In this document: piece by piece, positions 810 through 10,540 of the stretch | How the letters are laid out: every line of letters starts with the position of its first letter | How positions within the stretch are numbered: the stretch's first letter is position 1 | DNA from: Gelidibacter salicanalis | GTDB lineage: Bacteria > Bacteroidota > Bacteroidia > Flavobacteriales > Flavobacteriaceae | Length of the DNA stretch: 64,000 nt | Assembly: GCF_016469035.1 (NCBI RefSeq) | Contig: NZ_JAEHJZ010000049.1 | Coordinates: 53,015-117,014, forward strand | Direction of reading: 5' to 3' | Translations under genes and position numbers: made by a program | The notes under the pieces: generated by a model | Database searches by the model: none | The model's input: only the letters and a program-made list of their open reading frames with translations | What the model was told of the DNA's origin: nothing

Positions 810-1832
810 TTAAACTTTATACGTAGAGTCTCTGATAATGAGATTGGTTTTAATTTCAATGGTTTTACTCGTTACGACGTTATTTGGTGTATCGATTTCT
901 TCAATTAAATAATGTACTGCAGTTTTGCCAATGCGGTTACCAGGCTGGTCGATAGTGGTCAGTTGAGGCTCGATAATTGTTGAATTTGCATTATTGCTAA
1001 AACCTACAACGGCGATTTCTTCTGGAATTCTAACATTGAATTTTTTTAAAACCTTAATACAACCAATCGCAGCTGTGTCGGTTATGCAGAAAATGGCATC
1101 TGGGCGTTCTTTTAAGCTCAATAGAATATTGGTCATTCTTTTCCCTTCTTCCAAATTAATGTCTTCACAACTCAACACAATTTTTTCATCGAGAGGTATG
1201 TTGTGTTGCTTAAGAGCTTTTAAATATCCAGCAAACCGCTTTTCTGAATTATATGAAAACTCAAATTCCTTAATAATAGCAATTCGTTTCTTACCAATAT
1301 TTATTAAATGTTCAACCGCATCAAACGCTGCTTCTTCATCATTGATGACTACCTGGGTACACGGAATTTTGCTGGAAACCTTATCAAATAAAATAAGTGG
1401 AATTCTATTTAATGTCCTTAAAACATTGTCAACATCCCGGGTCAGTTTTGAAAGGGAAAGCAAAATTCCATCGACTCCAAATTGAATCATGGTATTTAAC
1501 ATCTCCGTTTGTTTTTCAATATCATTATTGGATTCAGAAATAATCACCCTATAACCTCGTGCCGCGGCTTCTTCAAGAATCCCTCTTATGATGGTGGTTG
1601 TATAATGATGTGTGACATTTGAAACCACAACGCCTATGATATTAGACCGATGTTGTCGAAATCCTTTTGCGAAAATATTTGGGATGTAATTCATTTCCTT
1701 GGCCAATTTTTTTACTTTTTCTTTAGTCTGGCTACTAATATCTTGATGGTCATTCAAAGCTCTAGAAACTGTTGAAATTGAAAGATTTAGAGATTCAGCT
1801 ATTTTTTTTAGGGTGGTGACATCTTTTTTCAT
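810..1832 (-). CDS. LacI-family transcriptional regulator
   Basis: The N-terminal helix-turn-helix (about residues 5-55, TTLKKIAESLNLSISTVSRAL) is the LacI signature, followed by a periplasmic-binding-protein-like sensor domain with IIGVVVSNVTHHY and a C-terminal TTIDQPGNRIGKTAV segment. About 340 aa is the normal size. I chose the ATG at 1832 because it starts just before the HTH; an ATG six codons upstream (1850) would lie inside the predicted operator. The gene diverges from the TonB receptor/glycosidase/symporter/glycerate-kinase operon, and a palindromic operator lies between them. It is therefore very likely the local repressor or activator, with the glycoside or a product as effector. 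The effector is inferred. Confidence 0.93.
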   Translation of the reverse strand: MKKDVTTLKKIAESLNLSISTVSRALNDHQDISSQTKEKVKKLAKEMNYIPNIFAKGFRQHRSNIIGVVVSNVTHHYTTTIIRGILEEAAARGYRVIISESNNDIEKQTEMLNTMIQFGVDGILLSLSKLTRDVDNVLRTLNRIPLILFDKVSSKIPCTQVVINDEEAAFDAVEHLINIGKKRIAIIKEFEFSYNSEKRFAGYLKALKQHNIPLDEKIVLSCEDINLEEGKRMTNILLSLKERPDAIFCITDTAAIGCIKVLKKFNVRIPEEIAVVGFSNNANSTIIEPQLTTIDQPGNRIGKTAVHYLIEEIDTPNNVVTSKTIEIKTNLIIRDSTYKV

Positions 1833-1846
1833 ACTTAACTTAAATT

Positions 1847-1871
1847 GCAAACGTTACCGCAAACGTTTGCG
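1847..1871. promoter_or_regulatory. Tandem LacI-type operator
   Basis: Bases 1858-1871 form a perfect 14-bp palindrome, CGCAAACGTTTGCG, the classic LacI/GalR-family operator shape with a central CpG. An imperfect copy, GCAAACGTTACCGC, starts 12 bp earlier at 1847 and overlaps it, placing the two half-sites about one helical turn apart. The site lies 15-39 bp upstream of the regulator start and about 80 bp upstream of the TonB receptor, so it could control both directions. Confidence 0.85.
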
Positions 1872-1950
1872 TACAAATATCCTAAAATTTAAGCATATTT
1901 ACTGCATACTTATTACTTAATTGGTCAAAAGTTAACTAATTCTTAATATT

Positions 1951-4545
1951 ATGAAACAAATTATCTTAATGCTTATTAGTGTATTTAGCGTTTCTGCAAT
2001 TTTTGCACAAACCGAAATATCAGGGACGGTAAAGGACAATGCAGGTGTACCTATAGCAGGAGCAAATGTCCTAATAATGGGGAGCGCCGAAGGTGCTAAT
2101 TCAGATTTTGATGGCAATTTTAGTTTTACATCAGAGCTTGAAGGAGAGCAAATCCTACAAATATCTTATGTAGGATATGAAACTCGTACTCAAAAAATTA
2201 TTTTAAGTGGAACTAAAATTGTCTTACAGATTACTTTAAAGGAAGGTGGAAACACTTTAGATGAAGTTGTCTTAACTGCAACATCTTCCACACGTTCTCA
2301 AAAAGAGACACCACTTTCAATTACTTCTATTGGAGCAAAACAGTTATCACAAACAAATACCAGTAGTCAAGCAGATATTTTGATGAGTGTTCCTGGTATT
2401 ACTGCCGAAGGTGGTGGTGGCGAGGTGGCCTCAAATATATTTGTTAGAGGATTGCCTTCAGGTGGCCAATATCAGTTTAATCCACTACAGATTGACGGAA
2501 TGCCTGTTTTAGCAACATTTGGTTTAAACTCGTCTGCACATGATGTATATTTTAGAAACGATTTAGGAATTAAAAGTTTAGAATTTGTTAGAGGAGGTTC
2601 TTCAATATTGTACGGTGTGGGTTCAGTTGCCGGTATTATTAACTATACCAGTGTTACAGGAAACAGTCAACCAAAAAACATCATAAAAACTGAAGTAGCT
2701 TCCAATTCAAGATATAAAGCAGATTTTTTGACTAGTGGACCTTTGGGAGGCGAAAACTCCAATACGTTTTATGCGCTATCTGGTTTTTATAGATATGATG
2801 ATGGCCCAATTAAAACGGGACTACCAACAGAAGGCTTTCAGTTGCGAGGTAACATAAAACAAGTGACCAAAAATGGCACAATAACTATGTCTGGACAATT
2901 TATTGATGATAATGTCCAATTCTTTTTACCCTATCCGTTAAAAGGGGGTTCGAGAGATCGTCCTACGGGAAATGATGGCGAAACCATCTATACCCTACAA
3001 ACTTCAGCAGCATCTGATATTTCATATAAAACACCAAATGGCATCTATCAGTCTTCAATTGAGGATGGCGTGGCAACGAAAGGGGGTTACTTTTTAACAA
3101 ATTTCAAGCACAATTTTGCTGATGATCTAAAACTCGATGCTAAACTAAGGTACTCAAGATATCAGCACCAATTTAATTTGTTTTTGGATGGCAGCGGTGT
3201 TTCTGGAGCAAAAGTGGTAGAAAGCCAACAGGAATATTTAGACGCCAGAGCGTTAACTTCAGGGGACTTTACATTACTGAATGGTCAACCATTACCTGCA
3301 AATGCACTAGTATTTGAAAACAGGATTTTGGACAGAAATAGACCCTTGCAAGAGTTGGTTGCGGATATTAAAATGACCAAAATAAAGAATGCCCATACCA
3401 TTACATTAGGAACATTCATGTCCAGATCAAGTGCAGGAGATTTTAATGTGGTTACTAATTATTTAAGTGAATACAATGATAATCCTGATTTAGTAGAAGT
3501 TTCAGGATATTCCAAAAATGGGGTTACCAATAGAGGGACAAGCTATTCAAACAAGAATATATCGAGTAACAAAATTGCCTTATTCTTAACCGATGAGATC
3601 AAACTTGATCGTTGGAATCTTGATGTAGGCGTACGTTATGAAAGGGCTTCTGGTGATATAGAAGTTGAAGGGTCCGAATCCTATTTAGTTGATAATATAG
3701 GAATTGCAAATTTGGATAATGTAAGATGGGGAAATGGAAGCTGGACTAGAGGCCACGTTTCTGCAACTGGCTTTGCCTTTGCAGCCGCTGCTCTTTATAA
3801 AGTAAATGATAACTTGAGTGCTTACGGAAACTTTTCAAGAGGTTATTTTTTTCCAGAATTAAGAAGTGTAAAGTTTGATGGTTTAGGAAATCCAAATGCC
3901 TATGATACAGAGAAAATAAACCAGTTTGAAGCAGGTGTTAAGTATGGTCAAGGTAAATTTTCTGGAACAGCAGCCGTCTATGGGGTTACACTTAATGATA
4001 GAAGAAACGTAACCTTCATTAATGCTCCTGGTGGTGGTTTTATTGAAGAAGTAGATATTCAAAACACAAAAACTATAGGTATTGAAACTACTTGGAAATA
4101 TAAGTTTGCAGAAAACTTTGCCTTACAAGGTTCATTGACCTATCAAGACCATGAGATTACGAAATCTGACAGCAATCCGGATTTTGAGGGTAATGAGTTG
4201 GGAAGACAGCCTAAAATTTTGGGAAATTTAGGGCTTGATTTTGACAACTCTACTTTTGATGGAAGCTTTGTTTATAATTACACTGGAAAGAAATTCACTA
4301 ATGATTCAAACAGTATTGAATTGGATGCCATTGGGATTGCAAATTTAAATCTTGGGTATACATTTCTAGTAGCAGAGACTGGAGAAACGTTGAGATTGGG
4401 AGCCCAAGTTTACAATTTATTTAATTCAGAAGGCATCACGGAAGGATCTCCAAGACTTAACAATAGCCAGACAGAGGAAGAATATTTTGTTGGACGACCT
4501 ATTCTTCCTACGCGAGTATTCCTAAATGCAACTTTTAATTTTTAA
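1951..4545 (+). CDS. TonB-dependent outer-membrane receptor with carboxypeptidase-like N-domain
   Basis: 864 aa with a Sec signal peptide (MKQIILMLISVFSVSAIFAQ). Residues about 22-105 form the carboxypeptidase-D-like regulatory domain common in Bacteroidetes receptors (ISGTVKDNAGVPIAGANV). A plug begins near LDEVVLTATSS, and a long beta-barrel ends in the aromatic C-terminus NATFNF. It imports a ligand over the outer membrane using TonB energy. There is no SusD partner next to it, which favours a small ligand over a polysaccharide. It heads the operon with the glycosidase, symporter and glycerate kinase, so the probable ligand is a glycosyl-glycerate. The ligand is inferred from the neighbours. 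Confidence 0.93.
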   Translation: MKQIILMLISVFSVSAIFAQTEISGTVKDNAGVPIAGANVLIMGSAEGANSDFDGNFSFTSELEGEQILQISYVGYETRTQKIILSGTKIVLQITLKEGGNTLDEVVLTATSSTRSQKETPLSITSIGAKQLSQTNTSSQADILMSVPGITAEGGGGEVASNIFVRGLPSGGQYQFNPLQIDGMPVLATFGLNSSAHDVYFRNDLGIKSLEFVRGGSSILYGVGSVAGIINYTSVTGNSQPKNIIKTEVASNSRYKADFLTSGPLGGENSNTFYALSGFYRYDDGPIKTGLPTEGFQLRGNIKQVTKNGTITMSGQFIDDNVQFFLPYPLKGGSRDRPTGNDGETIYTLQTSAASDISYKTPNGIYQSSIEDGVATKGGYFLTNFKHNFADDLKLDAKLRYSRYQHQFNLFLDGSGVSGAKVVESQQEYLDARALTSGDFTLLNGQPLPANALVFENRILDRNRPLQELVADIKMTKIKNAHTITLGTFMSRSSAGDFNVVTNYLSEYNDNPDLVEVSGYSKNGVTNRGTSYSNKNISSNKIALFLTDEIKLDRWNLDVGVRYERASGDIEVEGSESYLVDNIGIANLDNVRWGNGSWTRGHVSATGFAFAAAALYKVNDNLSAYGNFSRGYFFPELRSVKFDGLGNPNAYDTEKINQFEAGVKYGQGKFSGTAAVYGVTLNDRRNVTFINAPGGGFIEEVDIQNTKTIGIETTWKYKFAENFALQGSLTYQDHEITKSDSNPDFEGNELGRQPKILGNLGLDFDNSTFDGSFVYNYTGKKFTNDSNSIELDAIGIANLNLGYTFLVAETGETLRLGAQVYNLFNSEGITEGSPRLNNSQTEEEYFVGRPILPTRVFLNATFNF

Positions 4546-4570
4546 GTGTTTTTATAGTTGATTAGCAATT

Positions 4571-4608
4571 AAACTCATCACTCACAACAGAGCATGACTG
4601 GTGAGTTT
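4571..4608 (+). terminator. Intercistronic hairpin, possible partial terminator
   Basis: AAACTCATCA (4571-4580) pairs with TGGTGAGTTT (4599-4608) with one mismatch and an 18-base loop, in the 81-bp gap between the receptor and the glycosidase. The following sequence is AT-rich but lacks a clean U-run. It may lower expression of the downstream genes relative to the receptor or stabilise the receptor mRNA 3' end. Confidence 0.4.
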
Positions 4609-4626
4609 TATATAAAATTTTTATAG

Positions 4627-5937
4627 ATGGAAAAATTACAAAATAAAGCAAAAAGCGTTTTAAATAAAAACTGGAAAGATGGCTTCAGTGTGCCCTGCGC
4701 GAATTTATATCCCTTTCAATGGTTTTGGGATTCAGGTTTTATAGCCATCGGTTTTGCGCATTTTGATATGCCTAAAGCTGAAAAAGAAATAGAAACACTG
4801 TTGGATTCTCAATGGGATAACGGATTTATTCCACACATTATATTTCATACCGAGACTGATTCGTATTTCCCTGGTCCCGATTTTCATCAGTCGGATTTGA
4901 GTTCGCAAGCTTCTAAAAAATACAAATCTACAGGTATGACACAACCTCCTGTTACAGGTTTTGTGTTGCAGGATATGTATAGGATAAGTAAAGATAAAAA
5001 AGCAACTTTAAAATTTATAGAAGGAGTTATTGATAAGGTTTACTTTAACCATAAATATTTCTATGAAAATAGGGATCCAAAAAATGAAGGGCTCGTTTAT
5101 ATTTACCATAACTGGGAATCTGGCACAGACAATTCACCTATTTGGGATGATATTTGGTCGACCATGGATCCACCAGAATACAGTTTTGTTAGAAGAGATA
5201 CGTCACATGTTGATGCTTCACAACGACCTTCAAAAAGAGAATACGATCACTACTTACACATTATAGATATTGCTAAGGCACATCAGTATCGGGACGAAAA
5301 AATAGCGGAATTGTCGCCTTTTTTGGTACAAGACCCACTTTTTAATACCATGCTGATAAAATCCAATCAAAGTTTGATAGATTTATATCAACTTATTGGT
5401 AATAATGAAGATAAAATCCAGCAACTTAAAGAGTGGCAGGATAAAGCTATTAAGAGTTTTAACGAAAAATTGTTTGATAAGGATTTAGGTGTTTATATTC
5501 ATTATGACTTAAGAAATGAAAAACCATTAAGACACATTTCGTCATCATCATTTTCACCGTTGTTTGCCAACATTCCTAGTAAAGAACAAGCGGCATCCTT
5601 GGTTAATGTCATGATGGAAAAATTCGGGAATGACGATCAATATCTTTGTGCATCTTTTGACCCGACAAGTGAACGCTTCAATCCAAAAAAGTATTGGCGT
5701 GGTCCAGTTTGGGTGAACCTTAACTGGATACTTTATTATGGTTTAAAAAATTATGGATATGTTGATATTGCACAACGTGTAAAAAAAGACACTATTGAAA
5801 TCATTGAAAAAGCAGGTTTTTATGAGTATTTCGACTCTCGAAAAGAGGAGTACAAAAATGGAAATACAGGTTATGGAGGCAATGATTTCTCATGGAGTGC
5901 TGCATTATTGATTGATATGTTGCAAGACAACCACTAA
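4627..5937 (+). CDS. GH63/MGH1-like glycoside hydrolase, probable mannosyl- or glucosylglycerate hydrolase
   Basis: 436 aa, no signal peptide, so cytoplasmic. The (alpha/alpha)6-type motifs of the mannosylglycerate/glucosylglycerate hydrolase group are visible: WFWDSGF (about 32-38), QWDNGFIPH (62-70), NWESGTDNSPIWDD (162-175), KYWRGPVWVNLNW, and the C-terminal GYGGNDFSWSAA. D168 in ESGTDNSP and E400 in YEYFD sit where this family usually has its general acid and general base; this is assigned by pattern, not alignment. Size fits bacterial glucosylglycerate hydrolase (about 440 aa) rather than larger GH63 alpha-glucosidases. The sodium symporter begins 12 bp downstream and a glycerate kinase follows it, which strongly supports release of glycerate as a product. 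Trehalase or another GH37/GH63 activity is the main alternative. Confidence 0.82.
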   Translation: MEKLQNKAKSVLNKNWKDGFSVPCANLYPFQWFWDSGFIAIGFAHFDMPKAEKEIETLLDSQWDNGFIPHIIFHTETDSYFPGPDFHQSDLSSQASKKYKSTGMTQPPVTGFVLQDMYRISKDKKATLKFIEGVIDKVYFNHKYFYENRDPKNEGLVYIYHNWESGTDNSPIWDDIWSTMDPPEYSFVRRDTSHVDASQRPSKREYDHYLHIIDIAKAHQYRDEKIAELSPFLVQDPLFNTMLIKSNQSLIDLYQLIGNNEDKIQQLKEWQDKAIKSFNEKLFDKDLGVYIHYDLRNEKPLRHISSSSFSPLFANIPSKEQAASLVNVMMEKFGNDDQYLCASFDPTSERFNPKKYWRGPVWVNLNWILYYGLKNYGYVDIAQRVKKDTIEIIEKAGFYEYFDSRKEEYKNGNTGYGGNDFSWSAALLIDMLQDNH

Positions 5938-5949
5938 AACTTATAAATT

Positions 5950-7596
5950 ATGAATTGGCTTGACTATAGTATTGTAATTCTTTATATCGGGTTCTTTTTG
6001 GGAATGGGCTTTTTCTTTAAAGACAACAAAGATTCCAAAGATTATTTTTTAGGCGGAAAAAGCATGAGTTGGTTTCCGTTAAGCCTTTCTACTATGGCTA
6101 CCCAATTGTCGGCCATCAGTTTTATTTCAGCACCCGCGTTTGTTGGCCTTAAAGTGGGAGGAGGCATGAAATGGCTCAGCTTTGAGTTTGCTGTTCCGTT
6201 AGCGATGATTTTTATCATGATTGTCATCATTCCGCCCTTATTCAAGTCGGGTGTCGTGAGTATTTATGAGTTTGTAGAAAAACGCTTTCACGCTTCCACG
6301 CGTTTGGTGTTAAGCATAGTTTTTCAAATAAGTCGTGCGTTGGCTACGGGAGTGATGGTATATGCAGTTGCTATTATTCTCCAGGCCGTTTTAGATATCG
6401 ATTTTGTTTATACCATTTTGATTATCTCTATTATAACAATCGTTTATTCTTGGCAAGGAGGAATGAAAGCTGTTGTTTATGGAGATGCCATTCAGATGAT
6501 TGTACTTTTTGCAGGCCTGATTATTTGTTTGTATTATGGATGGAATTTGTTGCAAGAACACGGTGGGTTGCCACAAGGTTTTGACCCGGAACGTTTAAAA
6601 GTGATAGATTATAATTTAGGAATTGGTGAAGGCAACGAATATGGCATATTACCTATGCTTTTGGGTGGTTTGTTTTTATATGCTTCCTACTATGGCTGCG
6701 ACCAAACCCAAGCACAACGCATGTTATCTGCTAAAAACGAAAAAACCATCCGTCAATTATTATTGGCAAACGGATTACTTCGTTTCCCAGTGGTATTGAT
6801 TTACTGTACTATGGGACTGGTTATTGGTGGCTTGGTTTCCATTGCGCCAGATTTTTTAAATGAAATTTCACTGACCACACAAAAATATTTTCCTGAAGAG
6901 TATGCAATAACAGGGATGAAAGTAGATTTAATGTTGCCGGTTTTCATCATAAAATATTTACCTCACGGACTGATAGGAATTTTAATGGTTGGTATTCTTT
7001 CGGCAGCCATGTCGTCGTTGAGCTCCACCGTAAATTCGCTGTCAGCAGTCACTGTTGAAGACATCTTTAACAGAGGAAAAGTAAAGTTGAGCAACAAGAA
7101 ATACATGTTTATTTCAAAAGGTTCCGTAGTATTTTGGGGCGTTGTTTGTATAGCGAGTGCGTTTTTATTTGGTGGCAGTAAGAGTGCAGTTATTGAAATC
7201 ATAAACGCGGTGAGTTCGGTATTTTACGGTCCTGTATTGGTGACCTTTGTTCTTGCTTTCTTTTCAAAAAAAGTCAATCATATTGGGATGAATGCTGGTA
7301 TCATTTCGGCTGTAGTTGTTAATCTGATTTTGTCCAAAACCATGCAACAAATATTCAATATAGATTTGGGGATTCACATTTTTTGGATATGGTTAAATGT
7401 TACCGGAGTGATTATCTCGTTGGTTGTGGCCTATGTGGTAAGTGCTTTTACCAAAAATGTTGAAGTAAAAGAGATTTCTAATTTTAATGTCGCCATTAAG
7501 AAAGAAGATTTTATGGTAAAAGAAGTCTATATTTTGGTGGTCTTTTTTATAGCTATTCTGATATTCAGTTATTTCATACCAACTATTTTTAGTTAA
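5950..7596 (+). CDS. Sodium:solute symporter (SSS family)
   Basis: 548 aa with about 13-14 hydrophobic segments. The N-terminal region has the SSS pattern NKDSKDYFLGGKSMSWFPL followed by STMATQLSAISFI, then GGMKAVVYGDAIQ and the DQTQAQRML segment typical of SGLT/SSS transporters. It would move a solute inward across the inner membrane with Na+. It lies between the cytoplasmic glycosidase (12 bp upstream) and glycerate kinase (20 bp downstream), so the intact glycoside imported by the TonB receptor is the likely substrate. Sugar specificity cannot be read from the sequence. Confidence 0.9.
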   Translation: MNWLDYSIVILYIGFFLGMGFFFKDNKDSKDYFLGGKSMSWFPLSLSTMATQLSAISFISAPAFVGLKVGGGMKWLSFEFAVPLAMIFIMIVIIPPLFKSGVVSIYEFVEKRFHASTRLVLSIVFQISRALATGVMVYAVAIILQAVLDIDFVYTILIISIITIVYSWQGGMKAVVYGDAIQMIVLFAGLIICLYYGWNLLQEHGGLPQGFDPERLKVIDYNLGIGEGNEYGILPMLLGGLFLYASYYGCDQTQAQRMLSAKNEKTIRQLLLANGLLRFPVVLIYCTMGLVIGGLVSIAPDFLNEISLTTQKYFPEEYAITGMKVDLMLPVFIIKYLPHGLIGILMVGILSAAMSSLSSTVNSLSAVTVEDIFNRGKVKLSNKKYMFISKGSVVFWGVVCIASAFLFGGSKSAVIEIINAVSSVFYGPVLVTFVLAFFSKKVNHIGMNAGIISAVVVNLILSKTMQQIFNIDLGIHIFWIWLNVTGVIISLVVAYVVSAFTKNVEVKEISNFNVAIKKEDFMVKEVYILVVFFIAILIFSYFIPTIFS

Positions 7597-7616
7597 ATAT
7601 CTAATTCAATTTAAAA

Positions 7617-8744
7617 ATGAAGATTGTTCTCGCGCCAGATAAGTTCAAAGGTTCTTTAACAGGAATGCAATTTTGTGATGCCGTAGAAAAAGGTTTTAAA
7701 GAGATTTTGCCGTCTACAGAATTCATAAAGTTACCATTGGCCGATGGTGGCGACGGCACGATTCAAATTTTAGAATACCATTTAAAAGGGAAACGTCTTA
7801 AAGTTAAGGTGAATGACCCGTTATTTAGAGAAATTGAAGCCTCCTATCTTTATATGGACGCTACAAAAACCGCTTTTATTGAAATGGCGGAAGCTTCAGG
7901 AATGTATCTTTTAAAGCCTGAAGAGCAAAATTGTTTTTATACCACCACTTTAGGCACTGGAGAGTTGATATTGGATGCTATCAATAAAGGTGCTACAACC
8001 ATTATTTTAGGAATTGGCGGTAGCGCTACCAATGATTGTGGGATTGGTATGGCAACTGCATTAGGTTATAGATTTGAAGATGCGCGTGGTAAGGAACTAA
8101 AACCTATCGGGAAGAATTTATCGAAAATAAGGATGATTAATACCAGTTATGCCATAGGTGCCTTAAAATCTGTTAATTTTAAAGTTGCCTGTGACGTAAC
8201 AAATCCGTTATACGGAAAAGATGGTGCCGCATTTGTGTACGCGCCTCAAAAAGGAGCATCAGAAGTTGAAATAAAAGAATTAGATAAAGGGCTTAAAAAT
8301 ATCGCAAAACTGTTTAAAAGGCAATTTGTTATGGATGTTCAGAATATAAAAGGTGCTGGTGCAGCAGGAGGTATGGGAGCTGGCACATCAGTATTTTTAA
8401 ATGCTGAATTAAAATCTGGAATTGATTTGGTAAAAAGTTTAGTGGCTTTTGATGAAAAAATAAAAGGCGCCGATTGGATTATTACTGGCGAAGGTAAGTT
8501 GGATTCTCAAACACTATCAGGTAAAACAATCCAAGGTGTTTTAGAATCGGCGAAAGCTTTTAACATCAAAGTAGCCGCTTTTTGTGGTGCTATTGATTTG
8601 GATGATAAAACAGCAAAGCGTTTTGGTATAGATTATAAGGACGCTGTTTTAAACCATGCCAAAAATTTAGAAGATGGCATTAAAAACGGTTATGATTATA
8701 TAAATGGAATGGCTAAACTTTTTGCAAGTGGATTTTTGAAATAA
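7617..8744 (+). CDS. glxK: Glycerate kinase (GarK/GlxK family)
   Basis: 375 aa, the normal size. It starts with the family signature MKIVLAPDKFKGSLTGMQF, followed by LPLADGGDGTIQ, the GIGGSATNDCGIGMATALGY glycine-rich motif (about residues 133-152), GAGAAGGMGAG and WIITGEGKLDSQT. Members phosphorylate D-glycerate with ATP, usually giving 2-phosphoglycerate that enters glycolysis at enolase. As last intact gene of the glycosidase/symporter operon it would consume the glycerate half of a mannosyl- or glucosylglycerate. The exact product (2- or 3-phosphate) is not determinable here. Confidence 0.93.
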   Translation: MKIVLAPDKFKGSLTGMQFCDAVEKGFKEILPSTEFIKLPLADGGDGTIQILEYHLKGKRLKVKVNDPLFREIEASYLYMDATKTAFIEMAEASGMYLLKPEEQNCFYTTTLGTGELILDAINKGATTIILGIGGSATNDCGIGMATALGYRFEDARGKELKPIGKNLSKIRMINTSYAIGALKSVNFKVACDVTNPLYGKDGAAFVYAPQKGASEVEIKELDKGLKNIAKLFKRQFVMDVQNIKGAGAAGGMGAGTSVFLNAELKSGIDLVKSLVAFDEKIKGADWIITGEGKLDSQTLSGKTIQGVLESAKAFNIKVAAFCGAIDLDDKTAKRFGIDYKDAVLNHAKNLEDGIKNGYDYINGMAKLFASGFLK

Positions 8745-8768
8745 ACATCACAACTTTGAAATTAAAAT

Positions 8769-9020
8769 ATGGAATTATTTCCTTTATAATGTGAACCCAA
8801 TTACTGTTACCGAATATAGGGTGGGAATAAGTTAAAAACAATACTAAATAAAAATACAATCAAAAAAGTATAGGTGAATCTTGGGAGATTTCGGATATTG
8901 AAGACAACGAAACGCTTGTGTGCCAGGGTGATTTGAATGGAAGAACACTGAAGAGTTTGATTGAAAAATTCAAAAGCTATTTTGTTGGTAAAATGTTTAT
9001 GAAACCTTTGTGTAGTGGAA
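8769..9020 (+). pseudogene. manA: Decayed N-terminal fragment of mannose-6-phosphate isomerase (manA)
   Basis: Starting at ATG 8769 the frame reads MELFPL, stop, CEPNYCYRI, stop, then GGNKLKTILNKN, which matches the type I ManA start (PLxFEPxxxxRIWGGxKL). After a one-base slip near 8870 the next frame reads IGESWEISDIEDNETLVCQG and LNGRTLKSLIEKF, the well-known ManA GESWEIS segment. After YFVGK a further slip near 8993 leads into non-coding sequence. Only about the first 80 of some 320 codons remain. It lies 24 bp after glycerate kinase in the same orientation, so it was probably the last gene of the operon and converted mannose 6-phosphate to fructose 6-phosphate. This is a clue that mannose was the sugar released. 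Confidence 0.8.
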
Positions 9021-10192: not shown

Positions 10193-10540
10193 CAGGAATT
10201 GGTTGAGCAAGATATAAGAATGCTCTGTGAATGGAAGAGGTGTGAGGTTGAGGAGCTGCATGTTCAAGAGGATCATATTCATTTGTTGGTTTCAGTTCCA
10301 CCCAAAGTTTCTATCTCAAAGTTGATGGCTACTTTAAAGGGTAAGACTGCGATAAAACTGTTCAAGAGTTATCCCAAACTGAAAAAGAAACCTTATTGGC
10401 GCAATCACTTTTGGGCTCGTGGTTATTTTGTGAGTACCGTTGGATTAGATGAGAAAATGATTAAAAAACATGTCTAATACCAAGAGAAAGAAGAAAAGCG
10501 GATTGAGGATCAACAACAAAGGTTTGGTTTTTGACCAATG
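10193..10540 (+). pseudogene. tnpA: Truncated IS200/IS605-type TnpA transposase
   Basis: The frame from 10193 reads QELVEQDIRMLCEWKRCEVE, then the Y1-transposase HUH core EDHIHLLVSVPPK (about 10274-10312), GKTAIKLFKSYPKL and YWRNHFWARGYFVSTVGLDE. The first 40-50 codons of TnpA are missing. A stop after KKHV (10475-10477) interrupts the C-terminus, which continues in frame as YQEKEEKRIEDQQQRFGF. The HUH histidines remain. The tyrosine of the usual YVxYQE motif lies past the premature stop, so the enzyme should be dead. Confidence 0.82.

Follow-up and report, generated by a model that had tools for sequence, protein, structure and literature searches.

A candidate LacI-repressed operon for the use of glycosylglycerates, most likely mannosylglycerate (digeneaside), in Gelidibacter salicanalis

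Which solute is served by a gene cluster in which a LacI-family regulator diverges from a TonB-dependent receptor, a hydrolase, a sodium:solute symporter and a glycerate kinase? The question is raised by a 64,000-nucleotide stretch of DNA from Gelidibacter salicanalis (hereafter the window), for which a preliminary description had proposed the use of mannosylglycerate or glucosylglycerate. The former, also named digeneaside (PMC8490865), had been taken there as a red-algal solute, and the literature agrees: it is typical of the Ceramiales, most of which accumulate it (PMC8490865, PMC8523428), and 14.4 umol per g dry weight was reported for one other red alga. Its degradation has already been predicted for Zobellia galactanivorans and Maribacter dokdonensis 62-1 (PMC8072126), and it appears among the possible substrates of polysaccharide utilisation loci (PULs) in North Sea Flavobacteriia (PMC6298971). 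The proposal of digeneaside use is not itself new, and the window locus adds a member with stronger evidence; an experimental study of the operon was not found in searches of open-licence papers. Judging from sequence comparison, we consider it probable that LacI here represses an operon for the catabolism of glycosylglycerates, among which mannosylglycerate is the likeliest.

Gene layout and the LacI operator

The cluster is divergent, with LacI on the - strand and the genes at 1951-8744 on the + strand. The features are the following:

810-1850, - strand: LacI-family repressor (PF00356 and PF13377 above the Pfam cut-off)
1846-1871, no strand: LacI operator, two overlapping inverted repeats, with exact CGCAAACGTTTGCG at 1858-1871
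1951-4545, + strand: TonB-dependent outer-membrane receptor, 864 aa (PF00593, PF07715 and PF13715 above cut-off)
4627-5937, + strand: predicted glycosylglycerate hydrolase (GH63, MGH1-like), 436 aa (PF22422, E 4e-91)
5950-7596, + strand: sodium:solute symporter (SSF), 548 aa (PF00474; TIGR00813 above cut-off)
7617-8744, + strand: glycerate kinase (PF02595, 446 bits; TIGR00045, 424 bits, cut-off 168)
8769-9004, + strand: manA remnant (tblastn with the intact operonic ManA of relatives; read in three frames)

The gaps between receptor and hydrolase, hydrolase and symporter, and symporter and kinase are 81, 12 and 20 bases, and the manA remnant begins 24 bases past the kinase. The gene cluster of the preliminary description is real: the LacI, receptor, hydrolase, symporter and kinase genes are all full-length open reading frames (ORFs) with family matches above the Pfam cut-offs, and their order recurs across the Flavobacteriaceae, so that it is not due to chance. 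The LacI protein scores under the cut-off of every NCBIfam regulator model listed. The glycerate kinase matches PDB entry 3cwc (E 4e-86) and is the sole PF02595 gene detected in the genome. The receptor carries a carboxypeptidase-like domain at its N-terminus and is not a canonical SusC by profile (100.5 bits with the SusC/RagA model, whose cut-off is 368). A SusD partner is absent, the + strand ORFs of at least 80 aa in 1951-8744 being the receptor, hydrolase, symporter and kinase only. A canonical SusC/SusD polysaccharide utilisation locus is thereby out.

A conserved operator, as looked for in a LacI-controlled operon, was found. The motif CGCAAACGTTTGCG occurs within 3 mismatches in all 35 gaps behind LacI (34 from relatives and one from the window) but in just 0.14% of shuffled gaps, and again in 23 of 23 further LacI loci. 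Altogether the GCAAACGTTTGC-type operator adjoins LacI in 58 of 58 loci and is seen in none of the 24 loci that have no LacI, where the best match near the hydrolase gene start has at least 4 mismatches in every case. If the reading holds, this operator could serve as a recognition mark for the operon. The exact copy is present once in the 5.16 Mb genome, along with two sites with one mismatch, and the window's first 12.5 kb hold no second operator within 2 mismatches. A wider LacI regulon was rejected: genome sites with up to 2 mismatches number 13, against 15 in a reversed control, so that the exact site alone is informative. The one operator probably controls both the operon and LacI itself, and we infer repression by LacI and the existence of an inducer. 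The start of LacI is more likely ATG 1832 than the listed TTG 1850, because the operator at 1846-1871 would overlap a coding region beginning at TTG 1850.

The hydrolase and its active site

The hydrolase matches PF22422 (MGH1-like) with 306.6 bits over the full profile (1-356 of 356), far above the 59.5 bits of the trehalase model; its trehalase and GH63 Pfam matches are weaker, yet both exceed their cut-offs. No signal peptide was seen by eye. Among solved structures, the best match is the mannosylglycerate hydrolase of Thermus thermophilus (TtMgH, TTHA0978; 2z07, 4wva-4wvc), found through 2z07 and 4wva with E 3e-93 and 316 bits at 39.5% identity over 410 positions. The second is the glucosylglycerate hydrolase of Mycolicibacterium hassiacum (MhGgH), with E 7e-64, 220 bits and 32.2% identity. 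The alignment called for earlier thus places the enzyme far nearer to mannosylglycerate and glucosylglycerate hydrolases than to trehalases, and a trehalase placement did not arise.

The catalytic acid and base are D168 and E400, aligned to D182 and E419 of MhGgH. At 20 positions, which correspond to the substrate-contacting residues of MhGgH as given in PMC6608630, the window enzyme, TtMgH, MhGgH (entry 6g3n) and all 35 close relatives are identical, although the overall similarity to MhGgH is lower than that to TTHA0978. Among them are the glycerate- or hexose-binding residues Y36, W40, W42, D43, Y88, Q115, R216, Y222, Y375 and W376, of which Y36, W40, Y88, R216 and Y375 contact glycerate. 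Position 434 is F in 6g3n, TtMgH and the window enzyme, and Q in 5ohc and in the text of PMC6608630. When the set was enlarged to 83 flavobacterial enzymes, counting that of the window, all 20 residues were kept in 73; the remaining 10 carry F89Y, two of these also H78Q.

As a control, 62 more distant homologues were aligned, namely 44 Chloroflexi, actinobacterial and other matches and 18 paralogue ORFs, including the genome's own 678-aa paralogue; the 18 came from 21 loci (L001, L014-L033), three of which gave no matching ORF. The full residue set is present in none of them: all 62 are without Y88 and Y222 and 59 are without R216, partly through alignment gaps. The 44 non-paralogue matches, in which the set is absent, were set aside as probably having other substrates. 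The earlier reading of the substrate as a glycosylglycerate is supported by these comparisons. Moreover, MhGgH was unable to cut glucosylglycerol or glucosylglycolate (PMC6608630), so the pocket is selective for glycerate. If the reading is right, these residues would separate likely glycosylglycerate hydrolases from similar GH63-like proteins. The window hydrolase scores 326.1 bits against the NCBIfam equivalog for glucosylglycerate hydrolase (NF047898), whose cut-off is 550, and on this score it is akin to that narrow group but outside it. MhGgH probably mobilises the cell's own glucosylglycerate (PMC6608630). The window enzyme sits in a predicted uptake operon.

Conservation, proposed pathway and choice of substrate

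A scan of genome contigs gave 35 loci in Flavobacteriaceae and near kin with hydrolases 65-89% identical to that of the window, and the hydrolase was found in 57 of the 397 Flavobacteriaceae genomes searched, that of the window being one of them. The 82 non-redundant relatives considered below combine the 35 named loci with 47 of the 56 family loci fetched; of the nine dropped, seven repeat named loci and two (L185, L186) are without a full-length hydrolase ORF. When the three ORFs preceding the hydrolase and the four following it are counted, a symporter accompanies it in 81 relatives and a glycerate kinase in 73. LacI is there in 57 and the receptor in 54; a GNAT acetyltransferase occurs in 18 and manA in 12. 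The symporter follows the hydrolase in all 81, the exception being L040, where the contig ends. Relatives at 52-57% identity mostly have hydrolase, symporter and kinase, with neither LacI nor receptor; in the group lacking LacI, a divergent gene resembling murQ (MurNAc-6-phosphate etherase, by eye) adjoins the hydrolase, for instance at 5366-6202 of L171. The GNAT acetyltransferase behind the hydrolase (e.g. L036 9425-10051) is absent from the window. Between hydrolase and kinase, 73 loci hold just two ORFs besides the symporter and the acetyltransferase, one of 249 codons in L036 and one in L151 (9689-11383), the latter a GH13-type phosphorylase between symporter and kinase that shares 41% identity over 560 positions with YcjM, the glucosylglycerate phosphorylase of E. 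coli. Across loci L034-L068, two versions of the receptor can be told apart by identity to the window, one close (72-85%) and one distant (46-51%), and likewise two of the symporter (79-94% and 52-63%). Close and distant versions of the two proteins combine independently from locus to locus, a pattern suggestive of transporter swapping.

On this gene content, a pathway can be proposed. The TonB receptor would take the solute across the outer membrane, and the SSF symporter, presumed to be the inner-membrane importer of the intact glycoside, would carry it inward with sodium, a direction of transport that we infer. The cytoplasmic hydrolase would then release mannose and glycerate by inverting cleavage, and glycerate kinase would pass the glycerate to glycolysis. 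A kinase and a phosphomannose isomerase for the mannose would be supplied from elsewhere in the genome, because the operon's own manA is decayed. The claim that every step is covered is too strong: genes for uptake, hydrolysis and glycerate capture are present, but the fate of the hexose is not provided for, since manA is dead and the window cluster has no hexose kinase.

The decayed manA directly behind the kinase, already noticed in the preliminary description, was confirmed by tblastn with the ManA of relatives. Codons 1-28 of the L038 protein match 8769-8852 and, in a different frame, codons 29-75 match 8852-8992, with identities of 64% and 68% (E 2e-19), and the match of L065 extends to 9004; about the first quarter of the gene is left, frameshifted, and the other three quarters are missing. 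An intact manA gene immediately follows that for glycerate kinase in 12 of the 82 relatives, including Lacinutrix, Olleya, Algibacter, Aquimarina, Dokdonia and Hyunsoonleella; manA was not seen in 70 (61 of 73 when loci that are cut or without kinase are left aside). A single origin of the operonic manA was supported in just 34% of 200 bootstrap trees. On the hydrolase tree of 73 relatives and the window, from which nine of the 82 were omitted as cut or without kinase, the manA label takes 10 changes (9 with the window remnant uncounted), of which starred branches force at least 6. Two further copies of manA exist elsewhere in the genome (C262, C220), and these can account for the loss of the operonic one; there is also one ROK kinase, which might phosphorylate mannose. 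Among hexose kinase families the search covered the ROK type, and none was seen in the sequenced stretches around the loci of the 82 relatives.

The residues of the enzyme cannot decide between mannose and glucose, since TtMgH and MhGgH share the same set, and the attempt to choose by them fails. The preliminary description had held that both glycosides are substrates of such enzymes, and PMC6608630 bears this out: TtMgH has similar efficiency on both, and MhGgH hydrolyses glucosylglycerate almost tenfold more efficiently. Mannosylglycerate is favoured because of the intact manA behind the kinase in relatives and its remnant in the window. That the same operon mainly serves glucosylglycerate from marine cyanobacteria or bacteria, with glucose and glycerate as products, is in our judgement unlikely. 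The preference of MhGgH, with its identical active site, speaks for it, as do the rank of glucosylglycerate as a major solute of Prochlorococcus NATL2A (PMC11631117) and the YcjM-like phosphorylase of L151, which likely points to glucosylglycerate use in that locus. Glucose needs no ManA, however, yet ManA recurs in the clusters; L151 is the sole carrier of a phosphorylase between hydrolase and kinase among 73 relatives; and the window enzyme is nearer to the Thermus than to the mycobacterial hydrolase. We take these loci as a family serving glycosylglycerates, in which the window's lineage belongs to the mannose side.

Two further explanations appear very improbable. An operon for di- or oligosaccharides akin to trehalose, maltose or glucan, in which a GH63-like glucosidase acts and the glycerate kinase is incidental, could appeal to the trehalase and GH63 matches above cut-off and to one metatranscriptome paper that takes the GH63 family as alpha-glucan enzymes (PMC10811738). 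It is at odds with the complete glycerate-binding residues, with the failure of MhGgH, which has the same residues, even on glucosylglycerol and glucosylglycolate, and with the company of a glycerate kinase in 73 of 82 relatives; a trehalase or general glucosidase is ruled out by the glycerate-binding residues and the family scores. We give hardly more credence to a decaying locus that is non-functional in the present genome, as the manA remnant and the failure to detect the locus in nine of nine congeners might indicate, for the operator is intact, as are the other five genes, and the two other manA genes could stand in for the lost copy. For the preferred reading, that of a glycosylglycerate operon, a wider form can be stated: marine Flavobacteriaceae may share a dedicated LacI-switched operon for the import and hydrolysis of digeneaside, with a hitherto unrecognised sodium-dependent glycosylglycerate symporter and with a modular end section (manA, a GNAT acetyltransferase or a YcjM-like phosphorylase) adapting it to mannosyl- or glucosylglycerate, a generalisation that we believe and doubt in equal measure. 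If the preferred reading is right, a small red-algal metabolite would be tied to uptake, hydrolysis and regulatory genes in a broad group of marine bacteria.

Known systems and genomic setting

In E. coli, mannosylglycerate uptake and use are encoded by mngRAB, which has its own regulator and relies on PTS import and on hydrolysis of the phosphorylated glycoside by a GH38 enzyme. The E. coli ycjM region likewise serves glycosylglycerate breakdown and has its homologue of YcjM in L151, but it combines a phosphorylase with an ABC transporter, whereas the window has no phosphorylase and has a TonB receptor and a symporter instead. The predictions for Zobellia and Maribacter concern the same bacterial group and the same proposed substrate; in Maribacter polysiphoniae (L061) the genes are ordered as in the window, minus manA. 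Unlike the digeneaside PUL proposals, the window locus is without SusD and has the manA remnant.

A hydrolase of this type was not detected in the nine congeners, two of which show matches of about 95 bases at 70-72% at the DNA level. In 13 of the 35 named relatives, including Mariniflexile AS56, the locus lies between uppP-like and ftsX-like genes (names by eye). In the window's genome these genes (C662:41531-42310 and C662:42777-43652) are 466 bases apart, which leaves no room for the locus, and leuS is next as in Mariniflexile. The locus is on a separate 117-kb contig (C423) alongside metal-efflux genes. Since the uppP-ftsX site is empty and the locus stands on another contig, it has moved or was separately gained in this genome. 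Compared with Mariniflexile AS56 (L034), LeuS is 82% and FtsX 79% identical, and the locus proteins range from 75 to 92% (LacI 79, receptor 85, hydrolase 89, symporter 92, kinase 75%), not clearly apart from LeuS and FtsX, so that similarity as measured on these proteins gives no pointer to a distant donor. An argument for horizontal gain based on UppP was withdrawn, the Mariniflexile AS56 UppP (53% identical to the best copy in the window's genome) being an odd copy and no yardstick; this UppP-like protein (L034 3302-4114) shares just 29-33% identity with those that neighbour the locus in 12 other relatives, which would fit a replacement by a different copy. The contig may also be a foreign one within an assembly of 682 contigs with 2.55% contamination.

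Behind the cluster, at 10199-10477 of the window, lies an IS200-like transposase fragment (PF01797, profile 30-116 of 121), as would suit a region that is mobile or has been rearranged. Genes for metal efflux and for copper oxidases (AcrB/CusA-like, HlyD/CusB-like with a heavy-metal domain, multicopper oxidases) occupy 42923-63764 of the window and are also seen in L126-L127, and upstream on the same contig there are more ORFs resembling efflux pumps by eye.
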